64,000 nucleotides of DNA, taken from positions 1,426,001 through 1,490,000 of the forward strand of contig NZ_SHLI01000001.1 in assembly GCF_004217415.1 (NCBI RefSeq), written 5' to 3'. Below, one piece after another: positions 42,734-59,909 of the stretch (its first letter is position 1; each line of letters begins with the position of its first letter). Position numbers and translations under genes: made by a program. The notes under the pieces were generated by a model. The model was not told the DNA's origin. It did not search any database and saw nothing but the letters and a program-made list of their open reading frames with translations. The DNA is from Spiribacter vilamensis (GTDB taxonomy: Bacteria > Pseudomonadota > Gammaproteobacteria > Nitrococcales > Nitrococcaceae).

Positions 42734-43273
42734 ATGAGCTCCAGGATCTCAGCGCATGGGTTCAGCCCGATCCCACGCCCCATTCACCCATCGCCGAACC
42801 GACCGGTAAGCGATTTGTTTCGTCTCGTGCCAGCAACACCGGACTGGGTGGAAGAAGATTTTGCAGCGGTCGTGGAAAGCCGCCCTGCAATACGCGGACT
42901 CTTTGGCCCGGAGGTGGACTGGCCACCGTTTGACTTGACCATTCAGGAAGATCGCGACGATCTTCGATGGCATGCGGACGAATTTGAGGAAGGCACATCT
43001 TTCGCCTTCCTGGTTATCGCCCCTCGTCAACGTCTCTGCAATGGCTGTCTCTACCTGTTCCCGACCCAAAGCCCCGACCACGACATCGAGGCCTATCTAT
43101 GGATCCGATCCGACTTGGATGGCGTAATCGCCAAGCCGATGGAAGAACAGATCATTGCCTGGGTGACAGATGCATGGCCGTTCCAGCATGTGGCCTGGCC
43201 AGGTCGGGACTGTGCGATCGAGGACTGGTATCAACGCGGTTATGCTAACTACTATTCCCGACTGCGAGATTAG
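42734..43273 (+). CDS. GNAT-like acetyltransferase
   Basis: 179 residues. LRWHADEFEEGTSFAFLVIAPRQRLCNGCLYLFPTQSPDHDIEAYLWIRSDLDG resembles a GNAT core with the beta-4 strand, but the acetyl-CoA Q/RxxGxG/A loop is not seen in textbook form. The substrate is unknown. Composition here begins to fall below that of the preceding core genes. It overlaps the convergent MarR-like regulator by 29 nt. Confidence 0.55.
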   Translation: MSSRISAHGFSPIPRPIHPSPNRPVSDLFRLVPATPDWVEEDFAAVVESRPAIRGLFGPEVDWPPFDLTIQEDRDDLRWHADEFEEGTSFAFLVIAPRQRLCNGCLYLFPTQSPDHDIEAYLWIRSDLDGVIAKPMEEQIIAWVTDAWPFQHVAWPGRDCAIEDWYQRGYANYYSRLRD

Positions 43274-43649
43274 CGTCCGTTGCCGATGGTGCACGCAGAA
43301 TTTCCAGAGAGCGGTCAAGGAACGACTCGATCCGCTCGAGTAGCTCCGGTGACAGAGATACCCGCTTCGATCGCCGATCGGCTGGATCGGTCTCCTGCAC
43401 TAGAAGCCCCTCCCGAATAGCTCGATCGACGTACTTGACTGCGGTCCGACGACTAACCCTTGGCATGAAATCGTAGAGCTCGGTCTTGCGCGGTGACCGA
43501 TCTCGAGACAACCACAGGCGGGTAAAGAGATCTGAATAGTGGAGGTCATAATAGGCCTCGCCGCCCACGATCTCACCCCAGGATGCGTCGATGTTCTGCA
43601 GTGTCAGCACAAACCAGCAGCGGTCCGAGTCGGAGTACGTCCTTGTCAT
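43245..43649 (-). CDS. MarR-like winged-helix regulator
   Basis: 134 residues. Central helix-turn-helix and wing: SPRKTELYDFMPRVSRRTAVKYVDRAIREGLLVQETDPADRRSKRVSLSPELLERI, with the Asp/Arg-rich wing typical of MarR proteins. It is divergently transcribed from the TIM-barrel gene across a 103-bp gap that holds a TGCA-N4-TGCA inverted repeat overlapping a TATAAA box. It is therefore the best candidate local regulator of the guanidino catabolic block. Effector unknown. Confidence 0.75.
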   Translation of the reverse strand: MTRTYSDSDRCWFVLTLQNIDASWGEIVGGEAYYDLHYSDLFTRLWLSRDRSPRKTELYDFMPRVSRRTAVKYVDRAIREGLLVQETDPADRRSKRVSLSPELLERIESFLDRSLEILRAPSATDANLAVGNSS

Positions 43650-43721
43650 GGAATCTCGATCGTCCTCTTCTATGTGAGTTGACCTCTCATCCCTTTACAG
43701 TGCCGCAGATGGGTGAAACTA

Positions 43722-43742
43722 TAAATGCACTTTTGCATGTAT
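43722..43742. promoter_or_regulatory. Candidate operator (motif copy a)
   Basis: ATGCA-CTTT-TGCAT inverted repeat (43725-43738) between the divergent regulator and TIM-barrel genes, overlapping a TATAAA sequence at 43720-43725. Related sequences occur at 44761, 51089 and 51245. Repressor binding here would block transcription of the TIM-barrel gene. Confidence 0.5.
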
Positions 43743-43752
43743 CGGTGTCAAT

Positions 43753-44601
43753 TTGAAACTTGAAATCTTCAGGGCACTCTGGGGAACCGACGGAAACCTG
43801 ATGAAAGCGGCACAAGAGGCTCTAGATGCCGGTTTTGATGGTATTGAGTCCCCCGCGCCTGAGGATGACCATGGCTATCGTCAGATCATGGATATGCGGG
43901 AAAAAACAGGGCTTTTATGGAACGCTGAAATTTGTAGCGGTGGGGGCTATGTACCCCAACGCAACTTGAGCGTTCATGAGCACTTGATGAACCTCCGATC
44001 CGCTTTTACTTATCTGAAAGCACTGGAACCCCAACGAATCAATTGTATTGCAGGTCTGGATGCCTGGCCTTCCGACGTTGTCGTTGATTTCTACCAACGC
44101 GCACTTGACCTTGCCGATAGCAATGCGTTGAACGTCTTGTTTGAAACGCATCGAAGCCGCCCGATGTTCACACCCTGGGGTACACAGCGGTTGCTGGAAA
44201 TCCTACCCGAGTTGGAGATTACCGCTGATATCAGCCATTGGTGCGTTGTCAGTGAACGACTAATGGATACAGAGCTGGACATCATCCATGACATTGCCCC
44301 ACACGTGCGCCATATCCACGCCCGCGTGGGCTACGACCAAGGGCCTCAGGTGCCCCACCCGGCAGCGCCAGAGTACGCAGATGCACTGGCGAGCCATGAA
44401 TGCTGCTGGACATTATTCTGGGAAGCTCAAAGAGCGAGTAGCCACGATACGATCACAATGACACCCGAGTTCGGTATTGATGGCTACCTCCACCACTTGC
44501 CATTCACAGACGTTCCGGTCGCCGATCTTTGGTCGGTAAACCAATGGATGGCAAATCGATTGCGCGCACAGTTTGGCAAGTGGCAACGAGCGAGTGACTG
44601 A
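43753..44601 (+). CDS. Sugar-phosphate isomerase/epimerase-like TIM barrel
   Basis: 282 residues of the xylose-isomerase-like family. Candidate metal ligands: Glu131 in VLFETHRSR, Asp159 in TADISHW, His189 in RHIHARVG, and Glu near 239 in MTPEFG. It starts at a TTG because the frame is closed upstream. Family members isomerise sugars or act on related hydroxy compounds, so it may process the carbon skeleton released from a guanidino substrate. Lower GC than the core genes. Confidence 0.72.
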   Translation: MKLEIFRALWGTDGNLMKAAQEALDAGFDGIESPAPEDDHGYRQIMDMREKTGLLWNAEICSGGGYVPQRNLSVHEHLMNLRSAFTYLKALEPQRINCIAGLDAWPSDVVVDFYQRALDLADSNALNVLFETHRSRPMFTPWGTQRLLEILPELEITADISHWCVVSERLMDTELDIIHDIAPHVRHIHARVGYDQGPQVPHPAAPEYADALASHECCWTLFWEAQRASSHDTITMTPEFGIDGYLHHLPFTDVPVADLWSVNQWMANRLRAQFGKWQRASD

Positions 44602-44605
44602 CCAA

Positions 44606-44651
44606 GCACCATCCTGTTGCACAACGCCGCCCGGTTGCCACCTGATGGTGC
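44606..44651. repeat. Nested inverted repeat after the TIM-barrel gene
   Basis: GCACCATC (44606-44613) and GATGGTGC (44644-44651) pair perfectly over 8 bp, with an inner CAAC/GTTG pairing in the loop. No T-tract follows, so it is not a standard terminator. It could be a processing or attenuation structure between the TIM-barrel and transporter genes. Confidence 0.4.
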
Positions 44652-44760
44652 AGAGACGGCCTTCATAAGGATTCCCTGCTTCTCCCGTTCCCGCGCAACC
44701 CCCTGAAACCAAAGCGCAGGCTGCATTGGCATCCAAATTGCAACGCCTTATGTGTTAGCA

Positions 44761-44780
44761 ATATTACATGCAATAAAACC
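44761..44780. promoter_or_regulatory. Candidate operator (motif copy b)
   Basis: ATTACATGCAATAAAACC about 35-50 nt upstream of the substrate-binding-protein start. It shares TTACATGCA with the copy at 51089. A second TTGCAAC half-site lies at 44739-44745 and could also serve as a -35 element. Confidence 0.4.
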
Positions 44781-44812
44781 ACCACTATCAGGTTCTCATC
44801 AGGGAGTTCATC

Positions 44813-45892
44813 ATGATTTTCAGCACCCGCTTGAAAACATTCGTTGCGGCGTCAACGCTAGGCATCGCCGCAATCGGGCCGTCTTCGACGATGGCCCAGG
44901 AGACACCGACCTTCGACATCGGCTGGACGGTTTATGTTGGCTGGATGCCTTTTGCGTACATGGAACGAGAGGGGATTATCGATAAATGGGCCGACCGTTA
45001 CGACATCGATATCAACCTGATTCAGGTCAACGACTATATCGGTGGAATTAACCTGTATACGTCGGGCCGCTATGACGGCGTGACCATGACCAATATGGAC
45101 GCCCTCACCATCCCCGCGGCCAACGGCAAAGACTCAACATCCCTTTTCATTACCGATTACTCAAACGGCAATGACGCGGTTGTACTCAAAAACGGGGACT
45201 CGATGAGTGATATCGCAGGGCGTGACGTTTACCTCGTACAGTATTCGGTATCTCACTACACCCTCGCGCGCGCCCTACAGAAGGCCGACATGAGCGAGCG
45301 CGATATCAACACGATCAACACCTCGGATGCCGATATTGTCGGGGTTTTCGAACAGTCAGGCGTCAATGCAGTAACAGCCTGGAACCCACAACTCGGTGAG
45401 ATCGCCGAGCACCCCGATGCCAACGTGGTTTTCGACTCAAGCGAGATCCCGGGCGAGATTCTCGACATGATGGTCGTCGATACCGAAACCCTGGAGGAAT
45501 ACCCGGAGTTGGGTAAAGCGTTGACGGGTGCCTGGTATGAAACCATGGCCATCATGTATGGCGATGATCAGGGTGCGCGCGAATCGGCGCGGTCCCTAAT
45601 GGCTGAGGCCGCCGGAACCGATCTTGCAGGCTACAACACGCAGCTTGAAGCGACATTCATGTTCGATACACCCGAGAAGAAACTCGCGTTCGCGACGGAC
45701 GAGGAGCTGGTCGAGTCGATGGACTTCGTCCGCCAGTTCTCTGCCCGTCACGCCCTGCTCGGTGAGAGTGTCACCGATCCAGGTTTTATCGGCATTGCTT
45801 TCCCTGAAGGCTCAACGCTCGGCAATGAGGACAACATTCAGCTGCGCTTTAGCAACGAGTACATCCGCATGGCGGCTGAGGATGAGCTCTGA
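44813..45892 (+). CDS. ABC transporter substrate-binding protein, guanidine (urea carboxylase-region) type
   Basis: 359 residues with signal peptide (about 1-29, cleaved after STMAQ). The mature protein reads DIGWTVYVGWMPFAYMEREGIIDKWADRY, TNMDALTIPAANGKDSTSLFITDYSNGNDAVV, INTSDADIVGVFEQSGVNAVTAWNPQLGEIAEHPDANVVFDSSEIPGEILDMMVV and AWYETMAIM. These match the NMT1/TauA-like binding proteins encoded beside urea/guanidine carboxylases. Its permease and ATPase are not next to it but at 51518 and 52336, which lack a binding protein of their own. Its stop overlaps the creatininase-family start (TGATG). Confidence 0.88.
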   Translation: MIFSTRLKTFVAASTLGIAAIGPSSTMAQETPTFDIGWTVYVGWMPFAYMEREGIIDKWADRYDIDINLIQVNDYIGGINLYTSGRYDGVTMTNMDALTIPAANGKDSTSLFITDYSNGNDAVVLKNGDSMSDIAGRDVYLVQYSVSHYTLARALQKADMSERDINTINTSDADIVGVFEQSGVNAVTAWNPQLGEIAEHPDANVVFDSSEIPGEILDMMVVDTETLEEYPELGKALTGAWYETMAIMYGDDQGARESARSLMAEAAGTDLAGYNTQLEATFMFDTPEKKLAFATDEELVESMDFVRQFSARHALLGESVTDPGFIGIAFPEGSTLGNEDNIQLRFSNEYIRMAAEDEL

Positions 45893-46725
45893 TGCTCCAG
45901 ACCACCGGATACTTTGGCGTCGGTGGAGGGCTGGCTGGCCGCCAGCCCGTCCTCTGGGAGCGCATGACGTGGAAAAGCATTCAGGCGATGCACGCCAGAG
46001 GGGAGAGGCTGGTCGCCCTCCCGGTCGGTGCGACAGAACAGCATGGTCCGCATCTTCCCCTATCCACGGATACAGCGATTGCATCCGCAGTCTGCGGTTA
46101 TGCCTCGGCTTTAACAGGTGTACCGGTCTTACCCGCCATTTCTTATGCGGTCTCAGTTGGTCACACCCAGCACTGGCCCGGAACGGTGTCACTAACGCAT
46201 GAAACACTCGCCCTTTCCATACGCGAAGCCTACGAATGGATCCATTCAGCGGGTTTTGACCGGATCCTGATCGTCAATTCCCACTTCGGCAACGCCGCCA
46301 CACTCCAGGTCGCAATAGACCGACTGCGATACGAGTACGGGGAAAAGCTACAGATCGGTCTTGTCGAAACCTACTTCGTGACGGATCAGGTTAAGGAATA
46401 TTTTCTGAGCGATGGGGACGACATTCATGCCAACCGGGCTGAAACCGACCTGATGCTCCATATCGATCCGGACGCCTGTGTCATGGAAGCGGTGGAGGAT
46501 GACGAGGACCGAACAGCCGGAACCGTTTTCAGTTACGTCGTACCGCGAACCAGCCGTAACGGCGTGACTGGACGCCCAAGTCTCGGCAACGCGGATCGCG
46601 GTGCCGAACTACTCGAAGAAATGGGCCAAGGCCTTGCTTCGATACTTGAAACGGCACGTACCGAGGAGGCACCGCTCCAGTGGTCCTCACAGCAAGGCAA
46701 CCAACAAGGAACGACGCAAAGATGA
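45892..46725 (+). CDS. Creatininase-family amidohydrolase
   Basis: 277 residues. The metal site of creatininases is complete by eye: GATEQHGPHLPLSTD (Glu49, His51, Asp60), NSHFGN (His131) and HANRAETDLM (His179, Glu184). Family members hydrolyse cyclic or linear amide bonds, such as creatinine to creatine and formamido-pyrimidines. In this setting it may open or cleave an amide on a guanidino compound. Coupled to its neighbours on both sides. Confidence 0.85.
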   Translation: MLQTTGYFGVGGGLAGRQPVLWERMTWKSIQAMHARGERLVALPVGATEQHGPHLPLSTDTAIASAVCGYASALTGVPVLPAISYAVSVGHTQHWPGTVSLTHETLALSIREAYEWIHSAGFDRILIVNSHFGNAATLQVAIDRLRYEYGEKLQIGLVETYFVTDQVKEYFLSDGDDIHANRAETDLMLHIDPDACVMEAVEDDEDRTAGTVFSYVVPRTSRNGVTGRPSLGNADRGAELLEEMGQGLASILETARTEEAPLQWSSQQGNQQGTTQR

Positions 46726-48176
46726 GCGCCACCATTAGTGATCAACGCATCAACCGACTGATCGAGTCGGGTAATCCGTCTCCCGGTGCGCCCGCAGACA
46801 TTGTCGAAGATCCGGAGCGAGTCGCTGCGGTTAAAGCCGAATTGCAGGCAGCCGGCGTGGAATACTGCTACGCGAGTTACGTGGATATCCATGGGCGCCC
46901 CAAAGCGAAGTGCACTCCCATCGAGAAGTTCGAGAAGATGTGCGCGGGCTCCGAACTCTTCACTGTCGGTGCCATGGAGGGGATGGGCCTTTCCGGACCA
47001 CAGGAAGACGAGTGTGCCGCGGTGCCGGACCTCGACACCGGCGTCATATTGCCCTGGGACCGTTCTCGCGCCTGGTTTACCGGCCAGCTCTACTACCATG
47101 GCGAGCCATATCCCAACGATAGCCGGGTCATTCTCAAGAGGATGGTTGAACGGGCCGAAGCCCGGGGCATAAGAGTCAACCTGGGGTTTGAGCCGGAGTA
47201 CTACGTCCTGCGCGGCGAGTCGGGCAACGGGCTCGACACCATCACGCAGGATTATTTCGGTGTTTGTCCTGCTTACGACATCGACCTCACCGAAGACGCC
47301 TTCCCTTACCTCTCTCGCATGCGCAAATACATGGATGAGCTGGGCTGGAACGTTTACTCATTCGATCAGGAGGGCGGTAACGGCCAGTACGAGTTCGACT
47401 TTGGTTATACCGATATCATGAGCAGTGCCGACCAGTTTGTTTTCATGCGGCTCATGGCCAAACGGGTCGCTCATGACTTTAATGCTCGTGCGAGTTTCAT
47501 GCCGAAACCGTTCGCGACCGAGTTCCGCAGCGGTGCACACTTCAATATTTCCCTTGAGGATATGGAGACCGGCGAAAACCTGTTCGCACCGGGGGACAAT
47601 CCCGACCCGATGGCACAGATGCATGGAATCAACTTCTCGCGCCTGGCCTTCAACTTCACTGCCGGAGTCCTCCGACATGCCGGCGCCATCACGGCCCTGA
47701 CCTGCCCCACCTACAACTCCTACCAGGGCCTGCTCGCGCAGGGCGAGATGGTGGATCAATCATGGGCGCCGGTTGTTATCGCCTACGGCCGCAATAATCG
47801 CTCTGCCATGCTACGCATGCCAGCCAATCGTTATTGCATTGAAAACCGCGCACCGGATATGAGCTGTAACCCGTATCTGGCAGCCGCTATGCACATCGCA
47901 GCGGGACTGGAAGGCATCGATGAAGACCTCGATCCAGGCAAGCCACTCAACGACAATGCTTACGATCTCGGAGATATGCCTCTGTCGGAGCAAAAGGAGG
48001 CACTACTGCCTCGCACGCTACTTCACGCGCTTGAGGCGTTTGATGCCGATCCGCTGGTCGAGGACGTGCTCGGCGAATTCAAATCTATTTACGTGCGCCA
48101 GAAGCTGGGTGAATGGGAAAGCGAATTCTATCGGATCGGTGACGAGCATCGGCGCCGGACACTCTGGACCGTTTAA
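46722..48176 (+). CDS. Divergent type-III glutamine-synthetase-like ligase
   Basis: 484 residues, glutamine-synthetase fold. The beta-grasp part has YASYVDIHGRPKAKCTPIEKFEKM; the catalytic part has LGFEPEYYVL, GNGQYEFDFGYTD, RSGAHFNISL and NRSAMLRMPANRYCIENRAPDMSCNPYL. It is closest in style to GlnT/gamma-glutamylmethylamide synthetases. Two core positions differ from typical members: NSYKRL reads NSYQGL (residues 332-337), and HxHxS reads HFNIS (His273, Asn275). Probably ligates a carboxylate to an amine or guanidino group using ATP, rather than making glutamine. Confidence 0.85.
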   Translation: MSATISDQRINRLIESGNPSPGAPADIVEDPERVAAVKAELQAAGVEYCYASYVDIHGRPKAKCTPIEKFEKMCAGSELFTVGAMEGMGLSGPQEDECAAVPDLDTGVILPWDRSRAWFTGQLYYHGEPYPNDSRVILKRMVERAEARGIRVNLGFEPEYYVLRGESGNGLDTITQDYFGVCPAYDIDLTEDAFPYLSRMRKYMDELGWNVYSFDQEGGNGQYEFDFGYTDIMSSADQFVFMRLMAKRVAHDFNARASFMPKPFATEFRSGAHFNISLEDMETGENLFAPGDNPDPMAQMHGINFSRLAFNFTAGVLRHAGAITALTCPTYNSYQGLLAQGEMVDQSWAPVVIAYGRNNRSAMLRMPANRYCIENRAPDMSCNPYLAAAMHIAAGLEGIDEDLDPGKPLNDNAYDLGDMPLSEQKEALLPRTLLHALEAFDADPLVEDVLGEFKSIYVRQKLGEWESEFYRIGDEHRRRTLWTV

Positions 48177-48194: not shown

Positions 48195-49160
48195 ATGAGT
48201 GAAAAGACTGCCTCATTCGGGCGATTTCTGCATTCCGGAGGATTCCCCGGCAGCTTTCTGGGCGCACCACGCGTGGTGCCTACGCCAGAGGCTCTGGCGG
48301 AACACCCCGGCGCCGCCGCCGTCCTCGGCGTCCCCTTTGACGGGATGTGCATCAGCCGCTCCGGGGCTAACCACGGCCCAAAGGCGATTCGCGAGGCAAG
48401 CGAACAGAGTTCGTCATTCAACGCCAGCCGTGGCATTGATCTGCTCGAGCACTTCCCCGTCATCGACTGCGGCGATGCTGCCGTGGTCCCCGGCGGGCCC
48501 GAGCGGACCTTTGCGGAAGTTGAGACAATCATGGACAACTTCCATGCTCAACAGATGCGACCCGTCACACTGGGTGGAGATCATTCTGTTGCTATTCCAT
48601 GCCTCAGGGCTTTTGCACGTCATCACCGCAAGCCAGGGCTTATTCTCGTTGACAGTCACTACGACACCGCGGAGGAACTCGGTGGTGAACCGCTCAGCCA
48701 CTGCTGCCCAATCACTCGGGCCGTGGATGCCGGTTTCGACCCTGCCAATATCGTGATCGTTGGTATCAATGGATGGATGAATCCCTCTAACGAAGTGGAA
48801 TACGCCCGAAAGCACGGTATGACGGTCATTCACCAGGAGGAGGTTATCACTCAGGGCATCGAGGAAACCGCACGACGCACCCGTGAGTTGGTCGAGGCTG
48901 GTACGGACGGGGTCTACATGTCCTTTGATATCGATGCCATCGATGCAGCGTTCGCTCCCGGCACCGGAGTGCCCGCTCCAGGGGGATTGACCAGCCGCGA
49001 AGCCATCAAGTTGGTGCGACTACTTGGCGCCGCCGGGGGTGGCCTTGGCGGCTTTGACCTGGTGGAGGTTTCGCCACCGTACGACACCGCTGGTATTACC
49101 TCGCGACTGGCTTCCACACTCATTCTCGAGACGCTTGGTTCTATTGCAGTCGCCGGATGA
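48195..49160 (+). CDS. Arginase/agmatinase-family ureohydrolase
   Basis: 321 residues. Both metal-site motifs are kept: GGDHS (His130), DSHYD (Asp153, His155, Asp157) and SFDIDAIDAAFAPGTG (Asp245, Asp247). Two positions differ from the usual DAHxD and DPxxAPGTG forms. The loop HCCPITRAVDAG, normally a substrate contact region, is distinctive. Predicted to cleave urea from a guanidino substrate; guanidinobutyrate-like, guanidinopropionate-like or free guanidine are all possible. Arranged between the ligase and amidase genes. Confidence 0.88.
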   Translation: MSEKTASFGRFLHSGGFPGSFLGAPRVVPTPEALAEHPGAAAVLGVPFDGMCISRSGANHGPKAIREASEQSSSFNASRGIDLLEHFPVIDCGDAAVVPGGPERTFAEVETIMDNFHAQQMRPVTLGGDHSVAIPCLRAFARHHRKPGLILVDSHYDTAEELGGEPLSHCCPITRAVDAGFDPANIVIVGINGWMNPSNEVEYARKHGMTVIHQEEVITQGIEETARRTRELVEAGTDGVYMSFDIDAIDAAFAPGTGVPAPGGLTSREAIKLVRLLGAAGGGLGGFDLVEVSPPYDTAGITSRLASTLILETLGSIAVAG

Positions 49161-49996: not shown

Positions 49997-51067
49997 TCAG
50001 CCGGTCGTGGCATCCTTGTGGCGGCCGTGTTGCCCCAGGCTGCCAGTCTCCAGGGCGCCATCAGGCATTTTGACCTCCCCTCGCTCCAGACGCTCTCTCA
50101 GATAGCGGAAAGTCTGAATGGTCTGGGCATAGAGATGGTCGCCGGCTTTTAGCGCTGCATACCGCGGTGTCCCATTCACGCCAACGATCTCCGGCAAAGG
50201 CTCAACCACCGTTTCATAGTCGCAGGCGAAGAAGAACGGGAACGAATAGCGCTCCTCTTTTACCTTCCGCACCCGGTGGGATGTCGCAATAAATTCGCCG
50301 TTCGTCCACACCTCAAGCATGTCGCCGGTATTCACTACCAGGGCGTCGGGTCGAAACGGCACGTCAATCCACTCGCCGGCGCCGTTCATAACCTGCAGCC
50401 CGTCAGTGGTAGGCAGCAAGAGCGTGAAACACTCATAGTCCGTATGGGCGCCGATTCCCTCAGCATCTTCGGCCAGCGGGTCATGGGGGTAATGGATCAG
50501 CCTAAGCTGGCTGGGCGGCTTATTCACGTGTCTCAGGAAACGGTCTTCAGGGAGGCCAAGCGAGCGGGCGAAAGCGCCCATTAACTCCCGGCCAACCTGG
50601 TAGACACTGTCGTAGTAGGTCTCGACGGCCTCCCGGAAACCCGGCAGCTCGGGCCAGGGGTTTGGCCCCAGCAATGGTGCTTGAGGAGTTACTGCAGGAT
50701 CCTGCGGATCAAGCTCCATCGCAAGGTCGAATGCCTCTTTCAGGTCCCGCTTGTTCGGATCTGGCGACTCCTCCCCCTGCGGGACATATCCCCGGTGATT
50801 CGAGTAGTTGCCAATATACAGTGACATTTTGTCATCGAGCGGCTGCTCGAAGAACGCGCTCGCTTGAGCTTTCAGCTCATCGCGCATTGATGCATCAATA
50901 CCATGACCAACGATCTGGAAGAATCCGATATTGCGCGCCGCTTCTCCAATCTCTTCCGCGATCGACTGCCGTGTATCCGCGTCACCGTGAAAAAGGCCGG
51001 AGATATTGATCACCGGAATCGACTGGAAATCCTTGTGCACGTCTCCACCCGTTTGGCTGCTCATCAT
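49997..51067 (-). CDS. 2-oxoglutarate/Fe(II) oxygenase, EFE/IPNS-like
   Basis: 356 residues. Double-stranded beta-helix with iron ligands His208 and Asp210 (GIGAHTDYE), His264 (TSHRVR) and 2-oxoglutarate Arg273 (ERYSFPF). N-terminal IPVINISGL and GFFQIVGHGI are typical of the IPNS/ethylene-forming-enzyme class. Known EFE and homoarginine hydroxylases hydroxylate next to the guanidino nitrogen and release guanidine, so placement beside a guanidine operon is suggestive. GAGGAAG precedes the ATG. Confidence 0.87.
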   Translation of the reverse strand: MMSSQTGGDVHKDFQSIPVINISGLFHGDADTRQSIAEEIGEAARNIGFFQIVGHGIDASMRDELKAQASAFFEQPLDDKMSLYIGNYSNHRGYVPQGEESPDPNKRDLKEAFDLAMELDPQDPAVTPQAPLLGPNPWPELPGFREAVETYYDSVYQVGRELMGAFARSLGLPEDRFLRHVNKPPSQLRLIHYPHDPLAEDAEGIGAHTDYECFTLLLPTTDGLQVMNGAGEWIDVPFRPDALVVNTGDMLEVWTNGEFIATSHRVRKVKEERYSFPFFFACDYETVVEPLPEIVGVNGTPRYAALKAGDHLYAQTIQTFRYLRERLERGEVKMPDGALETGSLGQHGRHKDATTG

Positions 51068-51088: not shown

Positions 51089-51110
51089 TTTACATGCAGT
51101 ATTGCAACTA
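51089..51110. promoter_or_regulatory. Candidate operator (motif copy c)
   Basis: TTTACATGCAGTATTGCAAC: ATGCA-GTAT-TGCAA, the same TGCA-N4-TGCA plan as 43725-43738. It lies 22-43 nt upstream of the oxygenase start and overlaps a possible minus-strand -35 (TTGCAA). Confidence 0.5.
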
Positions 51111-51261: not shown

Positions 51262-51327
51262 TTGGTGAGACAGCTGAGCGATGACGGACCGACGGTCTGA
51301 GTCGACTGCTCAAACAATCTGGTAATA

Positions 51328-51420
51328 GCGTTGCTAGGGTTCCGGCTTGAAGAGGCGACTGGTCCAAGAGCAACCGACCTCTCTCGAGGGGTTACACGGC
51401 GGGACAAAAGCCCGGGAGGT
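51328..51420 (+). promoter_or_regulatory. Guanidine-I (ykkC) riboswitch
   Basis: Conserved strings of the class occur in order: GCTAGGGTTCCGGC (51333-51346), CTGGTCCAAGAGC (51359-51371), and ACACGGCGGGACAAAAG then CCCGGGAGG (51394-51419). The class binds guanidinium and turns on export or degradation genes. Here it precedes the permease, ATPase, deiminase, carboxylase and allophanate hydrolase genes. The remaining non-coding DNA 51068-51327 holds motif copies c and d and an inverted repeat, and no gene that I see. Confidence 0.93.
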
Positions 51421-51473: not shown

Positions 51474-51521
51474 ATGCCACGCCCGAAGCCTGTGCCACCT
51501 TCCGGCGACGCCCAGTCATGA
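51474..51521 (+). CDS. Candidate 15-residue leader peptide overlapping permease start
   Basis: ATG at 51474 has the strongest ribosome site in the leader (GAGAGGAG, 7 nt upstream) and encodes MPRPKPVPPSGDAQS before a TGA that overlaps the permease ATG (ATGA). The permease itself has no clear ribosome site, so translation may reach it only through this short frame. Could be a coupling peptide, part of the riboswitch output, or chance. Confidence 0.45.
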   Translation: MPRPKPVPPSGDAQS

Positions 51522-52339
51522 AACGACTGATCAATCAAAAGCCGACCAAAACACTTGCAGTCGCGGTCGCGGCAGCGCCTTTTCTGCTTGCAGTAGGATT
51601 CTATGTGGTTGCCTCGGTTGAGAGACTTGCCGAGAACCCCAACGATAAGCTTCTGCCTTCCCTGGGAACACTCGCAGCTTCCGTTGATCGCCTGACCACA
51701 GAGCCCAGTCGTCGTACCGGCGACATCCTTCTGTGGGCGGACACTCAGGCGAGCCTGTTCCGTATCGGCAGTGGAGTGGCCATAAGCATGGTATCTGCGC
51801 TTCTGGTAGGGGTGCTGACCGGACTGATCCCTTATGTCAACCGCACGCTTTCAACCTTCATTGCGGCTGTTGCAATGATCCCGCCTCTTGCCGTCCTCCC
51901 GATCTTTTTCATCGCTTTTGGCGTCGGCGAGCTCTCGAAGATCATGCTCATTATCTTCGGCATCCTGCCAGTGATGATTCGTGACCTTCAGCAACGCGTC
52001 GAGGGATTGCCCTCAGAGCAGTTAGTCAAGGCCCAGACGCTAGGGGCATCGAGTTGGCAAGTCTTTCTGCGTGTGGCGATTCCTCAGACTTTACCGCGAC
52101 TGTTTGATGTGACGCGGCTCGCGCTAGGGTCTGCCTGGTTGTTTCTGATTGCCGCAGAAGCCATAGCGGCTGAGCAGGGCCTTGGTTACCGGATCTTTCT
52201 TGTCCGACGCTATCTCGACATGCAGACCATCATCCCCTACGTGGTCTGGATCACAATCCTTGCGTTCTTGTTCGACTGGTTGCTGCGCCACATTAATCAA
52301 TGGCTCTTTCCTTGGTATACCGCCGGGAGATCAGAATGA
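51518..52339 (+). CDS. ABC transporter permease, guanidine uptake (TauC-like)
   Basis: 273 residues, about six membrane segments (KTLAVAVAAAPFLLAVGFYVV; FRIGSGVAISMVSALLVGVLTGL; STFIAAVAMIPPLAVLPIFFIAF). The EAA loop, which contacts the ATPase, is EQLVKAQTLGASSWQVFLRVAIPQTLP. Belongs to the SsuC/TauC type commonly encoded with urea/guanidine carboxylase. Composition is lower in GC than the downstream enzyme genes. Works with the ATPase at 52336 and probably the binding protein at 44813. Confidence 0.87.
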   Translation: MKRLINQKPTKTLAVAVAAAPFLLAVGFYVVASVERLAENPNDKLLPSLGTLAASVDRLTTEPSRRTGDILLWADTQASLFRIGSGVAISMVSALLVGVLTGLIPYVNRTLSTFIAAVAMIPPLAVLPIFFIAFGVGELSKIMLIIFGILPVMIRDLQQRVEGLPSEQLVKAQTLGASSWQVFLRVAIPQTLPRLFDVTRLALGSAWLFLIAAEAIAAEQGLGYRIFLVRRYLDMQTIIPYVVWITILAFLFDWLLRHINQWLFPWYTAGRSE

Positions 52340-53130
52340 GTGCGATCGAGATTTGTAGCCTCTGGAAAGAGTACGGGTCCACCGTTGTATTGGAGAATAT
52401 CGATCTTCAGGTTAGTGCTGGAGAGTTTGTCACCCTCGTGGGTGCCTCAGGCTGCGGTAAAAGCACCTTCCTGCGCATGCTGCTCGGCGCGGAGTCGCCA
52501 ACCCGGGGGCAACTGCTGCTTGATGGCGCACCGATGACCCCCGAACCCGGCCCCGACCGTGGTGTGGTGTTCCAGAAATATTCGGTATTTCCACACCTGA
52601 CGGCCATTGCCAACGTGCTGATCGCCGAGGAGATGGAACAGGCCCCATGGCTGGGCAGGTTGTTTGGCAGCGCGCGACACGAGGCCCTGGCACAAGCCCA
52701 CGACATGCTCGAGCGGGTCGGCCTGGGCCCCGCCGCAGATAAATATGCCAGCGAGCTGTCGGGCGGCATGCAGCAGCGTCTCGCCATTGCCCAGGCGCTC
52801 ATGAAAAACCCGCGCATCCTGCTGCTCGACGAGCCCTTCGGCGCCCTCGACCCGGGCATTCGCAAGGATATGCATGCGCTCATCCTCGATCTGTGGGAGC
52901 GCAGCGGTATCACCATCTTCATGGTTACCCACGACCTCAAGGAAGGCTTCGATCTGGGCACCCGGCTGCTGGTTTTCGACAAGGTCCGTGACGATCCGCA
53001 GGCCCCGGAGGCCTACGGCGCCACCATCACCTATGACATCCCACTGCAGCACGGCGGCCAGCAGCCCGCTGAACTGGCACCGGCGCTGCAGGCCCGACTC
53101 TCATCCACGCATAACAAGGAGAATGCCTGA
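52336..53130 (+). CDS. ABC transporter ATP-binding protein, guanidine uptake (TauB-like)
   Basis: 264 residues. Walker A GASGCGKST (about 38-46), signature LSGGMQQRLAIAQAL, Walker B ILLLDEPFGALD, switch His in MVTHDLKE. The start is the ATG overlapping the permease stop. The first ~130 nt have the moderate GC of the upstream island; the rest matches the high-GC host style, so a composition boundary falls inside this gene near 52470. Confidence 0.92.
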   Translation: MSAIEICSLWKEYGSTVVLENIDLQVSAGEFVTLVGASGCGKSTFLRMLLGAESPTRGQLLLDGAPMTPEPGPDRGVVFQKYSVFPHLTAIANVLIAEEMEQAPWLGRLFGSARHEALAQAHDMLERVGLGPAADKYASELSGGMQQRLAIAQALMKNPRILLLDEPFGALDPGIRKDMHALILDLWERSGITIFMVTHDLKEGFDLGTRLLVFDKVRDDPQAPEAYGATITYDIPLQHGGQQPAELAPALQARLSSTHNKENA

Positions 53131-53870
53131 TGCCTGCGACTCCCATCGCCGAATCGCGCATCGTGCACCATGAACACGTCCCAGGCGGACGCTACTGGTC
53201 GATGGTCGTGCGGCGCGGCTTCACGCTCCGCCTGGTGGACACCCACGGAACCGCCAACGTGTCCCTGCTCGGCTACAACCCCATGAACACGCTCGAGCGC
53301 TACAACATGGCCGATACCCTGAAAGGCCAGCATGTCAGCCGCCTCACCCAGGGCGACATGCTGTTCTCGGACATGGGCCGCGTCATGCTCTCGATCGTCG
53401 AGGATACCGTTGGCTGGCACGACCCCATTGGCGGGATCAGCGATGCCGACTCCATCCATGAGCGCTTTGGCGAGGCCCGGTTCCAGGAGCATCGGAACGA
53501 CTTCTACCGCAATGGCCGCGAGCTGTTCCTCATCGAGCTTGCCAAGTGGGGGCTGGGGCCGCGGGACCTGGTGAGCCCGGTGAATTTCTTCCAGAAAGTC
53601 AGCGCCGATGACGACGGTGATCTGCACTACAGCGCCGATCACAGCCATCCCGGCGCCAGCGTTGATCTGCGTGCCGACAGTGACACGCTGGTCATCCTGA
53701 CCACCGCCCCGCACCCGATGGCGCCGGGCCCGGACTACAACCCCGGCGCCGTGGACCTGTCGATCTACCGCTCGGCACCGGTCCGGGATGACGACGCGTG
53801 CATCCACCGCCGGCCCGAGAATGCCCGTGCCTACGCCAATTCACTCATCGCCAACTGCCAGGAGTCATGA
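53130..53870 (+). CDS. Carboxyguanidine deiminase subunit, first DUF1989 protein
   Basis: 246 residues of the urea carboxylase-associated (DUF1989) family: [55 protein letters not shown] and [18 protein letters not shown]. The Cys-bearing version of the second motif (CxRHD) is replaced by GWHD, so this may be the non-catalytic partner. Related proteins form the two-subunit CgdAB deiminase that converts carboxyguanidine to allophanate. Coupled to its neighbours by ATGA. Confidence 0.87.
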
Positions 53871-54523
53871 CCGTGCCTGCAATGAACCTCAAGCCAAGCG
53901 ACCTCGAGCCCGAGGATGCCGTCCAGCGGACCGTCGTCCCGGCCGGCGACTGGTGGATGGCGGAGATCCGTCGCGGCCAGACCCTGCGTATCGTCGATGT
54001 CGAGGGCAACGAAGCCGCCGACACCCTGTTCTACGGGCTGGACAATCCGCAGGGCGAGCATTACAGCGCGATCGATACCACCCGCCGCCAGGGCAATGTC
54101 TACCTGACAACCGGCACACGGCTGGTATCGAACAACGGCAACGTCATGCTCACGATCACCGCGGATACCTGCGGCCGTCATGACACACTCGGGGGCGCCT
54201 GTTCGGCCGAGGCCAACCAGATGCGCTACGCGCTTGATAAAAAGCCCATGCACTCCTGCCGGGACAATTTCCTGCACGCCATCCAGGAGAGCGGTTACGG
54301 GCTGACCAAGCGCGATGTCGCGAGCAATATCAACTTCTTCATGAACGTGCCGCTGACGGATGCCGGCAGCCTGCGCTTCGAGGACGGGATCTCCGGACCC
54401 GGCAAGTATGTCGAGATGCGGGCCGAAATGGACGTGATCGCCCTGGTCTCGAACTGCCCGCAGCTCAACAACCCCTGCAGCGGGTTCGATCCGACGCCGC
54501 TCGAGATGATCATCTGGGACTGA
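53867..54523 (+). CDS. Carboxyguanidine deiminase subunit, second DUF1989 protein
   Basis: 218 residues. [63 protein letters not shown] and CRDNFLHAI carry the Cys/His residues expected to bind metal and catalyse. This is the likely active subunit of the CgdAB-type complex, partnered with the gene just upstream. The ATG at 53867 follows AGGAG and overlaps the previous stop; the next gene begins 2 nt after its own stop. Confidence 0.88.
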
Positions 54524-54525: not shown

Positions 54526-57500
54526 ATGTTCAGCAAAATACTGATTGCCAATCGCGGCGCCATTGCCTGTCGCATCGAGCGTACCCTCAAGCGCCTCGGC
54601 ATCACCGCGGTGGCCGTGTACTCGGAGGCCGATCGCGCGTCCGCCCATGTCCGCGACGCCGACGAGGCGATCCTCATCGGGGGTGCCCGCGCCAGCGAGT
54701 CCTACCTCGACGCCGATCGCATCCTCGCCGTCGCCCGCGAGCATGGCGTCGACGCGATCCACCCCGGCTACGGCTTCCTCTCCGAGAACGCGGAGTTTGC
54801 CGAGGCCTGCGAGCGGGCGGGCATCGCCTTTATCGGCCCGACGCCGGATCAGATCCGACGCTTCGGGCTCAAGCACACCGCCCGCGAGCTGGCCGCCGCC
54901 AACGAAGTCCCGCTGCTGCCCGGCAGCGACCTGATTACCGACGTCGAGGCGGCCGCCACCGAGGCCGATGCCATCGGCTATCCGGTCATGGTCAAGAGCA
55001 CCGCCGGCGGCGGCGGTATCGGCATGGCGGTCTGCGATGATGAGACGGCCCTGCGCACGGCCCATGCCTCGGTGGAGCGGATATCGCAGAACAATTTCGC
55101 CAATGCCGGCCTGTTCGTCGAGCGCTTCATCCGCCACGCCCGCCATATCGAGGTGCAGATCTTCGGCGATGGCGAGGGCACGGTCATCGCGCTGGGCGAA
55201 CGCGACTGCTCGCTGCAGCGCCGCAACCAGAAAGTCGTCGAGGAAACCCCCGCCCCGGGTATTGATGCCGAGACCCGGGCGGCGCTGATGAAGGCCGCCG
55301 AGCGGCTGGGCCGTAGCGTGGCCTATCGATCGGCGGGCACGGTGGAGTTCATCCTCGACGCCGACACCGGCGCATTCTTCTTCCTGGAAATGAACACCCG
55401 GCTGCAGGTGGAGCACGGCGTCACCGAGGCGGTCACCGGCGTCGATCTGGTGGCATGGATGGTCGAGGCGGCCGCCGGCACCCTTGATGACCTCGGCGAT
55501 CGGCGGCCCGGCCCTGCCAACGGCCACGCCATCCAGGCCCGTGTCTATGCCGAGGATCCGGGCAAGGATTTCCAGCCGGCGACGGGCCTGATTACCGATG
55601 TCATCTGGCCCGAGGACACCCGCGTCGACACCTGGGTGGAGGCCGGCACCGAGGTGACGCCCCATTACGACCCCCTCCTCGCCAAGGTCATTACCCACAG
55701 CGCCGATCGCGAGGCCGCGCGCGAGGCGATGGGTCACGCCCTGGCCAGCACCCGCATTGACGGCGTAATGACCAACCTGGCCTATCTGCGCGCCATCATG
55801 ACCGACGCGGTGTTCATCGACGGGCAGGCGACCACCACCCGGCTCGCCGACTTCCGACCCCGCGAGGCGCGAATCGATGTCGTCAGCGCCGGGACACTCA
55901 CCACGGTCCAGGATTGGCCGGGTCGAACCGGCTACTGGGATATCGGTGTGCCGCCCTCGGGCCCCATGGACGAGCTGTCGTTCCGGCTGGGCAATCGGCT
56001 CCTGGGCAATCCAGACGGTGCCGCCGGGCTGGAGATCACCGCGCAGGGGCCGACGCTACGCTTTGCCGAAGCGACCCACGTGGTCATCACCGGCGCCGCC
56101 GTCCCCCTTGCCTGCGACGGCGATCCGGTAGCCGCCGGCGAGGTGCTGCGGATCCCGGCCGGCGCGACGCTCGCCATGGGCAGCGCGCGGGAGACGGGCA
56201 TCCGCAGCTATCTGCTCATCGAAGGCGGGATCGACGTGCCGCTACACATGGGCAGCCGCGCCACCTTTGCGCTGGGCCAGCTGGGCGGTCACGGGGGTCG
56301 CGCCCTGCAGGCGGGGGATGTCCTGCACCCGCTGCCGGTCGCGGCGACCGCCGAGTCACCCGCCGGCCGGCAACTGCCGGCGGGCCTGCGGGCGAACGAC
56401 CTGATGCCCGCCACCGACGAGGCCTGGACGCTGCGGGCCATGTCCGGCCCCCAGGGCGCACCCGATTACTTCACCCGCGAGTTCATCGAGACGTTTTTCG
56501 ACACCGACTGGACGATCCACTACAACTCCAGTCGCACCGGCGTGCGACTCATCGGGCCGGCACCGCAATGGGCCCGCGAGGACGGTGGCGAGGCGGGTCT
56601 GCATCCGTCCAACATCCACGACAACGCCTACGCGATCGGCAGCGTCGACTTCACCGGCGACATGCCGGTCATCCTGGGTCCGGATGGCCCCAGCCTGGGT
56701 GGCTTCGTCTGCCCGGCGACGATCATCGATGCCGATCGCTGGAAGATCGGCCAGCTGCGGCCGGGCGATCGCATCCGTTTCCGCGTGGTGGATCGCGACG
56801 AGGCGGCCATGGCCGATGCCGAGCGCACCGCCATGATCACCACCCTGCAGCCACCGACACCGCGGCATACCGCCACCCTGACCAACCCGCCCGATCCGGT
56901 GGCCCTGCATCGGCCGGATCGCCGCCACGCCCCGCGCGTGAGCTACCGGGTCGCGGGCGATCGCTACCTGCTGGTGGAATACGGACCCATGATGCTCGAC
57001 CTGGGGCTGCGCTTTCGCGTGCAGGCGCTGCTCGACTGGCTGAGCCAGCGGCCCGTTCCCGGCATCATCGAGATGACACCCGGAGTGCGCAGCCTGCAGA
57101 TCCACTTCGACCCCCGCCAGCTGCCGGCCGATCGGTTGATGGAGATCCTCGAGCAGGCGGAGCGGCGCATCGAAGCCATGGCGGACAGTGCGCTCCCCTC
57201 GCGCATCATCCATCTGCCGCTGGCCTGGGATGACAGTCAGACCCGGCTGGCGACCCGCAAGTACATGCAGTCGGTGCGCGAGGATGCCCCCTGGTGCCCC
57301 GACAACATAGAATTCATTCGCCGCATCAATGGACTCGAGCGCCGCGAGGACGTTAAGCGTATCGTCTTCGACGCCTCCTACCTGGTCATGGGGCTGGGGG
57401 ATGTGTACCTCTCGGCACCGCTCGCCACCCCGGTGGACCCGCGGCATCGCCTGGTGACCACCAAGTACAACCCGGCGCGCACCTGGACACCCGAAAATGC

Positions 57501-58155
57501 CGTGGGCATCGGCGGATCGTACATGTGCATCTATGGCATGGAGGGTCCCGGCGGCTATCAGTTCGTCGGCCGGACGCTGCAGATATGGAACCGCTACCGG
57601 ACCACGCCGGAGTTCCAGCAGCCCTGGCTGCTGCGCTTTTTCGATCAGGTGCGCTTCTACGAGGTCTCCGAGGAAGAGCTCATGGAGATGCGCGCCGCCT
57701 TCCCGGCCGGTGGCATGCGGCTCGACATCGAGGAGACCCGCTTTTCACTGGCCGACCACGAGGCGTTCGTGGCCGCAAACGCCGAGTCGATCGACACCTT
57801 CAAGGCCCGCCAGCAGGGGGCGTTCGAGGCCGAACGGCAGCGCTGGATCGACAGCGGCCAGGGGGACTTTGCCGCGAGTGTGCAGGCCGCGCCCACCGTC
57901 GATACCGATAGCCTTGAGCTGGATGACGACGAGTACGCCGTCGAGGCCGGCGTACAGGGGAGCGTCTGGGCGATCGAGGCTCGGGTGGGTGAACGCGTCG
58001 ATGCCGATGCGACCCTGCTGGTCGTGGAATCCATGAAAATGGAGATCCCGCTGCCCTCGCCCTGCCAGGGCACCGTGAGCCGTGTCCTCTGCGAGCCCGG
58101 CACCTCGGTGGCGCCGGGGCAGACCCTTGTGATCATCCGTCGGGAGTCCACGTAA
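54526..58155 (+). CDS. Guanidine (urea-type) carboxylase, biotin-dependent
   Basis: 1209 residues. Biotin carboxylase domain 1-450 ([57 protein letters not shown]); AHS2 and AHS1 carboxyltransferase domains about 450-990; a further urea-carboxylase region; and a C-terminal biotinyl domain with ESMKMEI, Lys near residue 1170. It carboxylates guanidine (or urea) with ATP and bicarbonate. Guanidine is preferred because of the riboswitch and two DUF1989 genes, which pure urea pathways do not need. Confidence 0.93.
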
Positions 58156-59909
58156 TGGAGACCATCGCCGACCGTCTCAACGCCTATCGCCATGCCGGGC
58201 ACCCGGTACGCGATCACCTGCTGAAAAGCCGCGACGCCATCGCCGCTGCCGATCCGCACAACGCCTGGATCAGCGTCATCGACGAGCCCACCCTGGCGGG
58301 AATGATCGACTGGCTGGAGCGGCAACCGCCATCGCTGCCGCTCTACGGCGTGCCTTTCGCGGTCAAGGACAATATCGACGTGGCGGGGCTGCCCACCACC
58401 GCGGGCTGCCCGGCGTATTGCTACTGGCCAGACGCGCACGCCGCCGTGGTCGAGCGGCTGGTCCGCGCCGGTGCCGTGCCACTCGGCAAGACCAACCTCG
58501 ATCAGTTCGCCACCGGCCTGGTGGGCAGCCGCTCGCCCTACGGCGCCTGTCGCAACGCCTTCGACCGCGACCGGATCTCGGGCGGCTCCAGTGCCGGCTC
58601 GGCGGTGGCCGTGGCGCTGGGGCAGGTCGCCTTTGCGCTGGGTACGGATACCGCCGGCTCCGGGCGCGTACCTGCCGCCTTCAACAACCTCACAGGTCTC
58701 AAGCCGACCCGCGGCCGGCTGAGTACCCGCGGCGTGGTGCCCGCCTGTCGCAGCCTCGACTGCGTGACCCTCTTCGGACTCTGCAGCGACGACGTGCGCC
58801 GCGTCTTCGAGGTGGCGGACGGCTATGACCCCCTCGACCCGCAGGCGCGCCGTCCCGGACCGCCCACGTCTCTGCCGCCGGCGATCCCGACGGACGGCTT
58901 TCGATTCGGCGTCCCCCGCGACGAGGACCTGGAATTCTTCGGTGACGAGCACAGCGCCGCCGCGTTCCAACGCAGCATCCAGGCCCTGGAGGCCCTCGGT
59001 GGCGAGGCCCGGCGCATTGACCTGACGCCCTTCCTCGAGACCGCCCGCCTGCTCTACGAGGGCCCATGGGTGGCCGAGCGCTACAGCGCGATCCGCGGAT
59101 TTATCGAATCAGAACCCGATTCGCTACTGCCCGTGACCCGCCAGATCATCGGCGCCGGCGCCCATCCGAAGGCCTGTGATCTGTTCGATGCCGAGCACCG
59201 GCTGGCGGAGCTGCGGCGGACGACCGAAGCGGTCTGGGACCGGGTGGACTGCCTGGTCACCCCCACCGCCGGCCATCTGCCGACGCTGGCGGCGGTCGAG
59301 GCCGATCCGGTGGGCGTGAACAGCCAGCTCGGGTATTACACCAACTTCATGAACCTGCTCGACCTGAGCGCCGTCGCCGCTCCGGGCGGCTTTACCCCCG
59401 ACGGGCTGCCGTTCGGCCTTACCCTGGCGGCCCCGGCGTGCATGGACAGGGCGCTCATCGACCTGGCCGAGCGGCTGCAGCGTCACAGCCGGTTACCGCT
59501 CGGTGTGGGTGGCGGTGAAGATCGGATGGCGATCGCCGTGTGCGGCGCACACATGAGCGGCCTGCCCCTCAATCCGATGCTCACCGAGCGTGGCGGGCAT
59601 CACCTGCAGACCACCCGGACCGCCCCGTTGTATCGGCTCTATGCCCTGCCCGGCGGGCCACCCGAACGCCCGGGACTGGTCCGCGTCGACGCCGATGGCC
59701 AGGCGGTGGAAGTGGAGGTCTGGACGCTGCCCCGGCATCGCGTCGGGGATTTCCTGCAGACCATCCCGGCACCGCTGGGCCTGGGGCGGATCACGCTTGA
59801 GGACGGCAGCGACGTCACCGGCTTTGTCTGCGAGGCCTATGCCACCGAACAGGCCGAGGACATCTCGGCACTCGGATCGTGGCGGCGGTATCTGACGCGC
59901 TTGAAGTGA
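58155..59909 (+). CDS. atzF: Allophanate hydrolase
   Basis: 584 residues. Amidase-signature domain with Lys71 (FAVKDNID), the Ser pair in ISGGSSAG (145/146) and Ser169 (GTDTAGSG). The C-terminal domain ([43 protein letters not shown]) is the AtzF-type decarboxylase. It turns allophanate into ammonia and carbon dioxide, completing guanidine nitrogen release. Starts at the last base of the carboxylase stop. Confidence 0.94.

Follow-up and report, generated by a model that had tools for sequence, protein, structure and literature searches.

A putative acquired module for substituted guanidines at the front of a guanidine carboxylase operon of Spiribacter vilamensis

The window analysed here is a stretch of 64,000 nucleotides of Spiribacter vilamensis (assembly GCF_004217415.1, contig NZ_SHLI01000001.1, positions 1,426,001 to 1,490,000; genome of 2.08 Mb, 100% completeness). 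It contains a guanidine carboxylase operon preceded by a block of low-GC catabolic genes. On balance we favour the view that this left block is an acquired module for the use of N-substituted guanidines, with methylguanidine as the leading candidate, which was joined by recombination to the front of a resident operon with a Guanidine-I riboswitch and displaced the resident binding protein. The basis is formed by the parts themselves, a break in composition and synteny, a transporter split over both halves, diagnostic residues of the carboxylase and recurrent gene pairs; the reactions proposed for the left block are predictions from sequence.

Organisation and origin of the locus

The G+C content at third codon positions (GC3) is 0.56–0.69 in the genes from 42734 to 52339, 0.75 in the ATP-binding cassette (ABC) ATPase gene and 0.79–0.87 in the genes before and after, with 0.79–0.80 in the two genes just before 42734. 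A match to the guanidine carboxylase Gca is present in four of 13 same-genus genomes, three full-length and one partial at a contig end. In the three full-length cases, the operon is located at the same chromosomal site, flanked by the same genes over the extent of the stretches, and has the order riboswitch, substrate-binding protein (SBP), permease, ATPase, CgdA, CgdB, Gca and AtzF. The SBP of the window groups with that of a ligase locus in another genome (L029; comparison loci are numbered L and genomes G), apart from its own genus (support 97/95). From the GC3 break, the same-genus synteny and the grouping of the SBP, it seems that about 9.6 kb of DNA was acquired as a block that replaced the native riboswitch/SBP/permease segment and displaced the resident binding protein. 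No direct repeats of at least 18 bases were found at the block ends.

The right half is, judged by sequence, a guanidine carboxylase operon. In the available text of PMC11410670, aspartates at the positions equivalent to residues 1330 and 1584 of the Kluyveromyces lactis enzyme separate guanidine carboxylases from urea carboxylases. When aligned to PDB entry 5i8i, Gca has Asp at both positions: D708 (N1330 in K. lactis) and D959 (D1584). Both DUF1989 subunits exceed their cut-offs (UAAP1 324 versus 206 bits, UAAP2 318 versus 285 bits), and it is by these cut-offs that they are assigned as CgdA and CgdB. The riboswitch operon contains a permease and an ATPase and has no binding protein of its own, and at E ≤ 0.001 TIGR03427 matches a single protein of the genome, the SBP of the left block, which indicates that one importer is split over both halves.

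The features of the locus are as follows.

42734..43273, plus strand: open reading frame of no recognised family, first gene of the low-GC block (GC3 0.61; no Pfam match)
43245..43649, minus strand: MarR-like regulator, divergent from TIM (HTH_27 19.8 bits, below the Pfam cut-off of 22.2)
43726..43740, plus strand: putative MarR operator upstream of TIM, exact TGYANNNNTRCATGY site
43753..44601, plus strand: TIM, AP_endonuc_2 TIM-barrel enzyme (Pfam 33.6 bits), proposed hemiaminal (N-hydroxyalkylguanidine) lyase
44757..44771, plus strand: possible third operator with one mismatch, 41 bp before the SBP gene (suggestive only)
44813..45892, plus strand: SBP, NMT1-type ABC substrate-binding protein of the guanidine/urea operon type (TIGR03427 474.7 bits, cut-off 333.9)
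45892..46725, plus strand: CRE, creatininase-family amidohydrolase (PF02633 205.8 bits; below the NCBIfam creatininase and MftE cut-offs)
46722..48176, plus strand: GSL, glutamine-synthetase-like ligase (PF00120, Gln-synt_C, 253.4 bits)
48195..49160, plus strand: ARG, arginase-family ureohydrolase of agmatinase type, without two of three guanidinase residues
49157..49981, plus strand: NIT, nitrilase-superfamily amidase (CN_hydrolase, PF00795 122.2 bits)
49997..51067, minus strand: MgdH-like 2-oxoglutarate (2OG)-Fe(II) oxygenase (DIOX_N and 2OG-FeII_Oxy; 60–64% identity to six MgdH candidates)
51092..51106, minus strand: putative MarR operator 25 bp before the oxygenase start, exact site
51323..51420, plus strand: Guanidine-I riboswitch (Rfam RF00442, 83.4 bits, E 2.2e-13)
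51518..52339, plus strand: ABC permease (GC3 0.62, by composition within the acquired block)
52300..53130, plus strand: ABC ATPase (GC3 0.75; block boundary approximately here)
53130..53870, plus strand: UAAP1, carboxyguanidine deiminase subunit CgdA (TIGR03425 324 bits)
53798..54523, plus strand: UAAP2, carboxyguanidine deiminase subunit CgdB (TIGR03424 318 bits)
54526..58155, plus strand: Gca, guanidine carboxylase of urea-carboxylase type (TIGR02712 1820 bits; D708, D959)
58155..59909, plus strand: AtzF, allophanate hydrolase (TIGR02713 754 bits)

All families that an earlier note on this DNA had named are thus recovered by Pfam, NCBIfam and Rfam matches, adjoining the Guanidine-I riboswitch operon. 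The ATG start of GSL at 46722 overlaps CRE by 4 bp; a GTG at 46680 is an alternative start. The motifs sought in the oxygenase, NIT, CRE, ARG and TIM are all present, and the roles given to their residues are our assumption. A Guanidine-II riboswitch before Gca is retained in the same-genus operons L116 and L117; in the window and in L115 none is above the Rfam threshold. Within Gca, ARAGORN calls a tRNA (56265–56357) that has no proper anticodon and is almost certainly false. Further upstream, an SAH riboswitch (RF01057, 50 bits, 39726–39811) lies directly before the gene at 39829, presumably encoding S-adenosylhomocysteinase, and is also present before the relative of that gene in L115.

The oxygenase

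The closest relatives of the oxygenase are proteins of six genomes from one family (60–64% identity), and in all six a relative of MgdL adjoins the oxygenase. In L041 (genome G223), the sole neighbourhood of the six that was fetched, the oxygenase gene follows Gca in an operon with Guanidine-I and Guanidine-II riboswitches, and is itself followed by the gene for a 221-residue protein without Pfam match that carries the pair D45-x-R47. According to the available text of PMC12508155, the mgdH/mgdL operon of Vreelandella boliviensis, in which the two genes sit between gca and atzF, is responsible for methylguanidine demethylation, with D49 and R51 as the catalytic pair of MgdL, and has been reported from Salinisphaera too. 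By sequence, the L041 neighbourhood matches this published operon in gene content and in the D-x-R pair; an AtzF match was not found within the stretch examined. MgdL-like proteins with the D-x-R pair are also present in L076, L107 (Novosphingobium), L108 (Acinetobacter) and the ligase locus L024.

In our tree, the window oxygenase is located inside a clade of 16 rows (96/89), together with MgdH-like and TIM-paired oxygenases. It is thus a predicted homologue of MgdH, in a comparison made with the six oxygenases beside MgdL, for one of which (L041) the guanidine operon was checked. When the L041 protein was used as query (E ≤ 0.1), MgdL was not found in the genome of the window, nor in G041 or G197, although very diverged members could escape such a search; the second mark of an MgdH, an MgdL encoded in the same genome, is therefore not in evidence.

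An identity as ethylene-forming enzyme (EFE) was considered and is not supported. The best solved match, 9ovh (204 bits), has an EFE-type name, and the entries that we take to be Pseudomonas EFE (for instance 5v2t, about 68 bits) score only about 68–77 bits. The label "EFE-like" of the earlier note is therefore replaced by "MgdH-like", the plant homoarginine hydroxylases lying outside this comparison.

The TIM-barrel enzyme

A profile search for TIM in 398 genomes of the phylum gave a match in nine (E ≤ 1e-50), the window's genome included. All eight others have an oxygenase gene directly beside TIM, except that in L134 a single gene intervenes; G505 (L078), which is among the eight, had itself contributed to the profile. 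Five loci found via the ligase or the oxygenase (L022, L042, L103, L104 and L105, three of them found again by TIM in a plasmid search) bring the count to 13 of 13 other loci with an oxygenase neighbour, 12 directly adjacent and one a gene away. This partner is a 2OG oxygenase in ten loci, an FA_desaturase-type protein in L078 and L133 and a Rieske oxygenase in L022. The plasmid search yielded six TIM matches, of which two with an identity of 29% or less were left out of the count; a second Klebsiella plasmid match (H44) is, by its coordinates, located beside the oxygenase match H9.

None of the 13 TIM loci has a detected MgdL and none of the ten distinct MgdL loci a detected TIM, counting L033 and L041 as one place; a diverged MgdL could be missed, and five of the MgdL loci have only about 1.5 kb of flank. 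In Paraburkholderia (L103), genes for MarR, TIM and the oxygenase are situated directly before a CgdA-CgdB-Gca-AtzF operon with Guanidine-I and Guanidine-II riboswitches. A MarR-family gene is found beside TIM in L103 (by annotation) and in L134 (46% identity to the MarR of the window). TIM itself matches no NCBIfam model and, at E ≤ 0.001, no PDB sequence.

Because TIM is the constant neighbour of three unrelated oxygenase types, the simplest reading is that it acts on the oxygenated product, and with MgdL as precedent the cleavage of a hemiaminal is a natural proposal. By analogy, TIM may replace MgdL as the lyase for a hydroxylated guanidine; alternatively, it may act on the carbon product. 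As a separate observation, the oxygenase-TIM pairs of L042, L104, L105 and L128–L132 form an uncharacterised catabolic cluster of their own, present in gammaproteobacterial genomes and plasmid-collection records; the pair in L105 is accompanied by an ABC binding protein of unstated type.

The putative MarR operator

The motif TGYANNNNTRCATGY was defined by eye from the MarR-TIM gaps of the window, L103 and L134. Exact sites occur twice in the 64 kb window, where 0.10 are expected and none of 100 shuffles reaches two: one before TIM, which helped to define the motif, and one 25 bp before the oxygenase, which did not. This placement before just these two genes would point to a common control and to TIM as the partner of the oxygenase. 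When up to one mismatch is allowed, the window has ten sites (3.9 expected; one of 100 shuffles reaches ten), some of them inside genes. Exact matches are present in 14 of 134 loci, several inside ligase genes. In L042, where the MarR-like gene is further away, there is no exact match.

The ligase and the creatininase-family protein

Relatives of GSL with an E-value below 1e-60 and more than 380 aligned residues were placed in a tree, leaving out loci that duplicate longer ones, and residues were mapped to PDB entry 7cql. This entry was taken to be RhGmaS since all 17 residues named in the available text of PMC7948447, from which the catalytic, Mg, methylamine-pocket and glutamate-site roles are taken, fit it. 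GSL and 19 relatives form a group (100/99) apart from the 34 other glutamine-synthetase-like rows, which have GmaS-type residues. GSL keeps the catalytic Arg312, Asp177 and Glu186 of GmaS (R374, D229 and E238) and the Mg ligands (E171, E173, E231, H287 and E388). The pocket is different: at the positions of Ala48', Gln175 and Asn188, all 20 members of the new clade have Thr, Ser and Asp, whereas the others have Ala (34), Gln (33, with Ala in one) and Asn (34). Gln175 and Asn188 belong to the methylamine pocket and Ala48' is the equivalent of Asp50' (PMC7948447, available text), so that the methylamine site of GmaS is changed in GSL at these two residues (S227 and D240).

The clade consists of two subclades. 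In subclade A (the window, L029, the first copies of L022 and L023, and L024–L028), all nine rows have Gly231 changed to Arg and Arg288 to Gly (R283 and G350 in GSL); these two residues bind glutamate in RhGmaS according to the same text, and the GmaS glutamate site is thus changed at both. In the 11 rows of subclade B, both are unchanged in all. The Akkermansiaceae loci L022 and L023 contain two ligase copies each, one per subclade, with a Rieske oxygenase gene between the copies in L022, and the two may perform different steps of one pathway.

At the 17 other ligase loci, CRE is present in 11 (p 0.003), SBP in 13 (p 0.0005) and DUF1989, by the UAAP2 query, in eight (p 0.026), followed by Gca and ARG in four each (p 0.27 for both), TIM in two (p 1) and the 2OG oxygenase in one (p 1). 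None of these seven is present in any of eight control loci, apart from a weaker SBP match beside control L085. The ligase counts are not independent, L022/L023 and L074/L075 being close pairs. Several loci repeat larger parts of the arrangement. L076 contains, on a single strand, SBP, EamA, MgdL, MgdH, MBL, CRE, GSL, Gcw_chp, permease, ATPase, CgdA, CgdB, Gca and AtzF, and L081 contains SBP, permease, ATPase, CRE, GSL, a Guanidine-II riboswitch, CgdA, CgdB, Gca and AtzF. In L074 and L075, the ligase is located between two riboswitch-led guanidine units, one with permease and ATPase and one with UAAP1-UAAP2-Gca-SBP; the Guanidine-I riboswitches are at 7822–7935 and 17936–18050 in L074 and at 1908–2032 and 11970–12083 in L075. 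Instead of CRE, the genes that adjoin GSL in L074 and L078 encode an alpha/beta-hydrolase and a TetR protein.

GSL is read, from its residues and neighbours, as a putative ligase for a guanidine-like or related amine, the amide of which would be hydrolysed later, glutamate being an uncertain acyl donor in subclade A. CRE scores below the NCBIfam creatininase equivalog cut-off (118 versus 235 bits). The earlier note had coupled the ligase to the amidase NIT as a glutamylation-deglutamylation pair; the recurrent partner turns out to be CRE (11 of 17 versus none of eight controls), and NIT gave no match at E ≤ 1e-35 in 368 other genomes of the class, so that comparison across genomes lends this pairing no support. 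In the open-access literature (subscription papers and preprints lying outside its scope), no paper was found linking guanidine and its riboswitches with creatinine amidohydrolase, with glutamine synthetase plus creatininase or allophanate hydrolase, or with xylose isomerase plus oxygenase, nor one linking creatininase with gamma-glutamyl compounds, an amide hydrolase and a gene cluster. Separately, a gene for a NikR-type nickel regulator (10705–11253) follows CRE and GSL in L077, which hints at a nickel enzyme there.

The ureohydrolase and the nitrilase-type amidase

ARG exceeds the agmatinase cut-off TIGR01230 (196 versus 174.3 bits) but does not reach that of PRK02190 (209 versus 302), and is predicted to be of agmatinase type by the former. 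An identity as Ni-dependent guanidinase (GdmH) is not supported, ARG having C52/I53, H169 and V259 where Thr, His and Trp are expected at PF00491 positions 15, 134 and 223 (mapping approximate). ARG is also present in the ligase loci L024, L025, L027 and L028. For NIT there was no match at E ≤ 1e-35 in 368 other genomes of the class (its own genome being the only one of 369), nor in the ligase loci searched.

Proposed pathway and alternatives

In the proposed pathway, the acquired SBP would, with the permease and ATPase, import the substituted guanidine. The MgdH-like oxygenase is likely to hydroxylate the carbon next to a guanidine nitrogen, giving a stable hemiaminal. TIM, as a metal enzyme replacing MgdL, could plausibly split this into guanidine and an aldehyde, a step to which we give an even chance. 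The guanidine would turn on the riboswitch operon and be consumed by Gca, CgdAB and AtzF. More speculatively, GSL and CRE might broaden the range of substrates by making and hydrolysing (or rearranging) an amide formed from a related amine or guanidine, with ARG and NIT as a side branch. A bolder reading joins two undescribed activities: TIM as founder of a new, non-homologous family of hemiaminal lyases, partnered by 2OG, Rieske and desaturase-type diiron oxygenases, that frees guanidine from hydroxylated alkylguanidines; and GSL as an ATP-dependent ligase dedicated to a guanidine-type nucleophile (one subclade using a non-glutamate acid or a new glutamate pose), with CRE as its hydrolase. 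That both are right is a tentative suggestion, with less than an even chance.

Partial sets recur with guanidine carboxylase operons (L074, L075, L076, L081 and L103) and the oxygenase belongs to a clade with guanidine-releasing MgdH-like proteins, which ties the block to guanidine use. To this extent, the earlier proposal is supported; its "larger" guanidino compound is not necessary, since MgdH-like proteins are closer to the oxygenase than Pseudomonas EFE is, and the substrate may be as small as an N-methyl or N-alkyl guanidine. The co-occurrence that the note had asked about is partial: L076 has ten gene families in common with the window, and no second locus with the complete set came to light. 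Three points are new relative to that account: a probable horizontal acquisition together with an exchange of the binding protein, the apparent partnership of TIM with the oxygenase, and a clade of ligases whose binding sites are altered.

Several observations weigh against an acquired methylguanidine module. Gca is near only four of the 17 other ligase loci (none of the eight controls) and in only one of the 13 other TIM loci (L103); L022 and L023 contain CRE and GSL with no Gca match within the stretch examined, and no guanidine riboswitch was found in L042, L078 or L128–L134. The CgdB match of L076 is just 74 residues long, and that locus has no riboswitch above threshold. In the window, TIM and the oxygenase are about 5.4 kb apart on opposite strands, and the branching order inside the 16-row oxygenase clade is not resolved. 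An OmpA gene of native composition, at 42030, is also absent from the site in the three relatives, so the extra DNA starts before the low-GC block. Finally, six of the ten other TIM-2OG loci (L042 and L128–L132) have an SBP_bac_3-type binding protein gene, L104 has an annotated amino-acid ABC transporter, and genes for a class II aldolase and a GhrA-type (glyoxylate/hydroxypyruvate-reductase-type) protein are present in L042, L104, L105 and L131, with the aldolase alone in L132. Given this transport type and these genes, the common substrate could be something other than methylguanidine, and TIM could work on the carbon product.

The same neighbours, together with the location of ARG directly upstream of TIM in L042, L105 and L131, would suit an oxygenase-TIM pair whose substrate is a guanidino acid, be it guanidinoacetate, creatine or a compound like arginine, and which releases (methyl)guanidine along with an oxo acid, for instance glyoxylate; TIM would work on the acid product or a hydroxy acid, and CRE and ARG would feed the same substrate. 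We regard this as rather unlikely, as the window block has neither the aldolase/reductase pair nor an SBP_bac_3 gene, its oxygenase is closest to MgdH-like proteins and CRE falls under the creatininase cut-off. The scheme of the earlier note, in which GSL glutamylates a large guanidino compound, an enzyme of EFE/homoarginine-hydroxylase type oxidises it and NIT removes the glutamyl group, has a chemical precedent, since the logic of glutamylation, oxidation and hydrolysis is known for aniline and isopropylamine. It also agrees with the conserved GmaS catalytic residues and with the oxygenase genes at GSL loci (Rieske in L022, L024, L025 and L027, FA_desaturase type in L078, 2OG in L076). It is nonetheless improbable: NIT was not seen with GSL at the other loci searched, the oxygenase is nearest to MgdH-like proteins, and the Arg and Gly at the equivalents of RhGmaS Gly231 and Arg288 in the window's subclade make glutamate uncertain as acyl donor.

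If ARG instead hydrolysed methyl- or dimethylguanidine to urea and (di)methylamine, GSL could be a true GmaS capturing the amine. Among solved structures, the best relative of GSL, 9qur, is named glutamate-methylamine ligase, followed by RhGmaS (7cql); GSL retains Lys30' and Tyr147; and the ureohydrolase superfamily includes dimethylguanidine and metformin hydrolases (PMC12508155 and PMC11399263, available text). GSL lies, however, outside the rows with GmaS-type residues (100/99), with the Gln175, Asn188 and Ala48' positions changed in all 20 members of its clade, ARG has a match in only four of the 17 other GSL loci, and no N-methylglutamate genes were recognised among the typed neighbours (no genome-wide search was made), all of which makes this methylamine route quite improbable. 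That unrelated acquired genes came together by chance beside a guanidine operon is very improbable indeed. The whole set was found in no other genome and the class genomes searched contain no close relative of NIT, but SBP-CRE-GSL and ARG-NIT overlap, GSL and ARG are 18 bp apart, SBP-CRE-GSL recurs in G041, operator sites are shared, and L076, L081, L103 and L134 repeat parts of the set.

Guanidine riboswitches are widespread and few guanidine-releasing enzymes are known (PMC12508155, available text). The locus joins a known guanidine sink to candidate sources, and names two testable families of enzymes for them; if the assignments are true, two enzymes may perform chemistry not yet assigned to their families. 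With the chromosomal site unchanged, the exchange of the binding protein amounts to a natural experiment on how importers follow new catabolic genes.

Comparison with known systems

The right half of the window is like the canonical guanidine carboxylase operon, both diagnostic aspartates included. Where the canonical operon has its riboswitch/SBP/permease segment, the window has what appears to be acquired DNA, with the SBP in the left block.

With the methylguanidine operon mgdH/mgdL (PMC12508155, available text) the window shares a Guanidine-I riboswitch, an ABC importer, CgdAB, Gca, AtzF and a homologous 2OG oxygenase. It differs in having a TIM barrel and no detected MgdL, in an oxygenase gene that lies outside the riboswitch operon and carries a putative MarR operator, in the addition of CRE, GSL, ARG and NIT, and in the lack of an internal Guanidine-II riboswitch above threshold. 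EFE and the plant homoarginine-6-hydroxylases, the latter outside our sequence comparison, have the 2OG-Fe(II) superfamily and guanidine release in common with the function proposed for the oxygenase.

The TIM barrel belongs to the same superfamily as the xylose-isomerase-like AP_endonuc_2 barrels, with the E, D-x-x-H, H and E positions conserved, to which we assign presumed metal roles. Unlike other barrels of this family, it has no NCBIfam or PDB match and is a constant neighbour of oxygenases.

Compared with GmaS (RhGmaS; PMC7948447, available text), GSL has the same fold family, the catalytic triad Arg312/Asp177/Glu186, the Mg ligands, Lys30', Tyr147 and the Trp that replaces the flap glutamate of glutamine synthetase. 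It differs in the amine pocket, where Gln175 is Ser and Asn188 is Asp, in Thr at the position of Ala48' and, in subclade A, in the exchange of Gly231 for Arg and of Arg288 for Gly.

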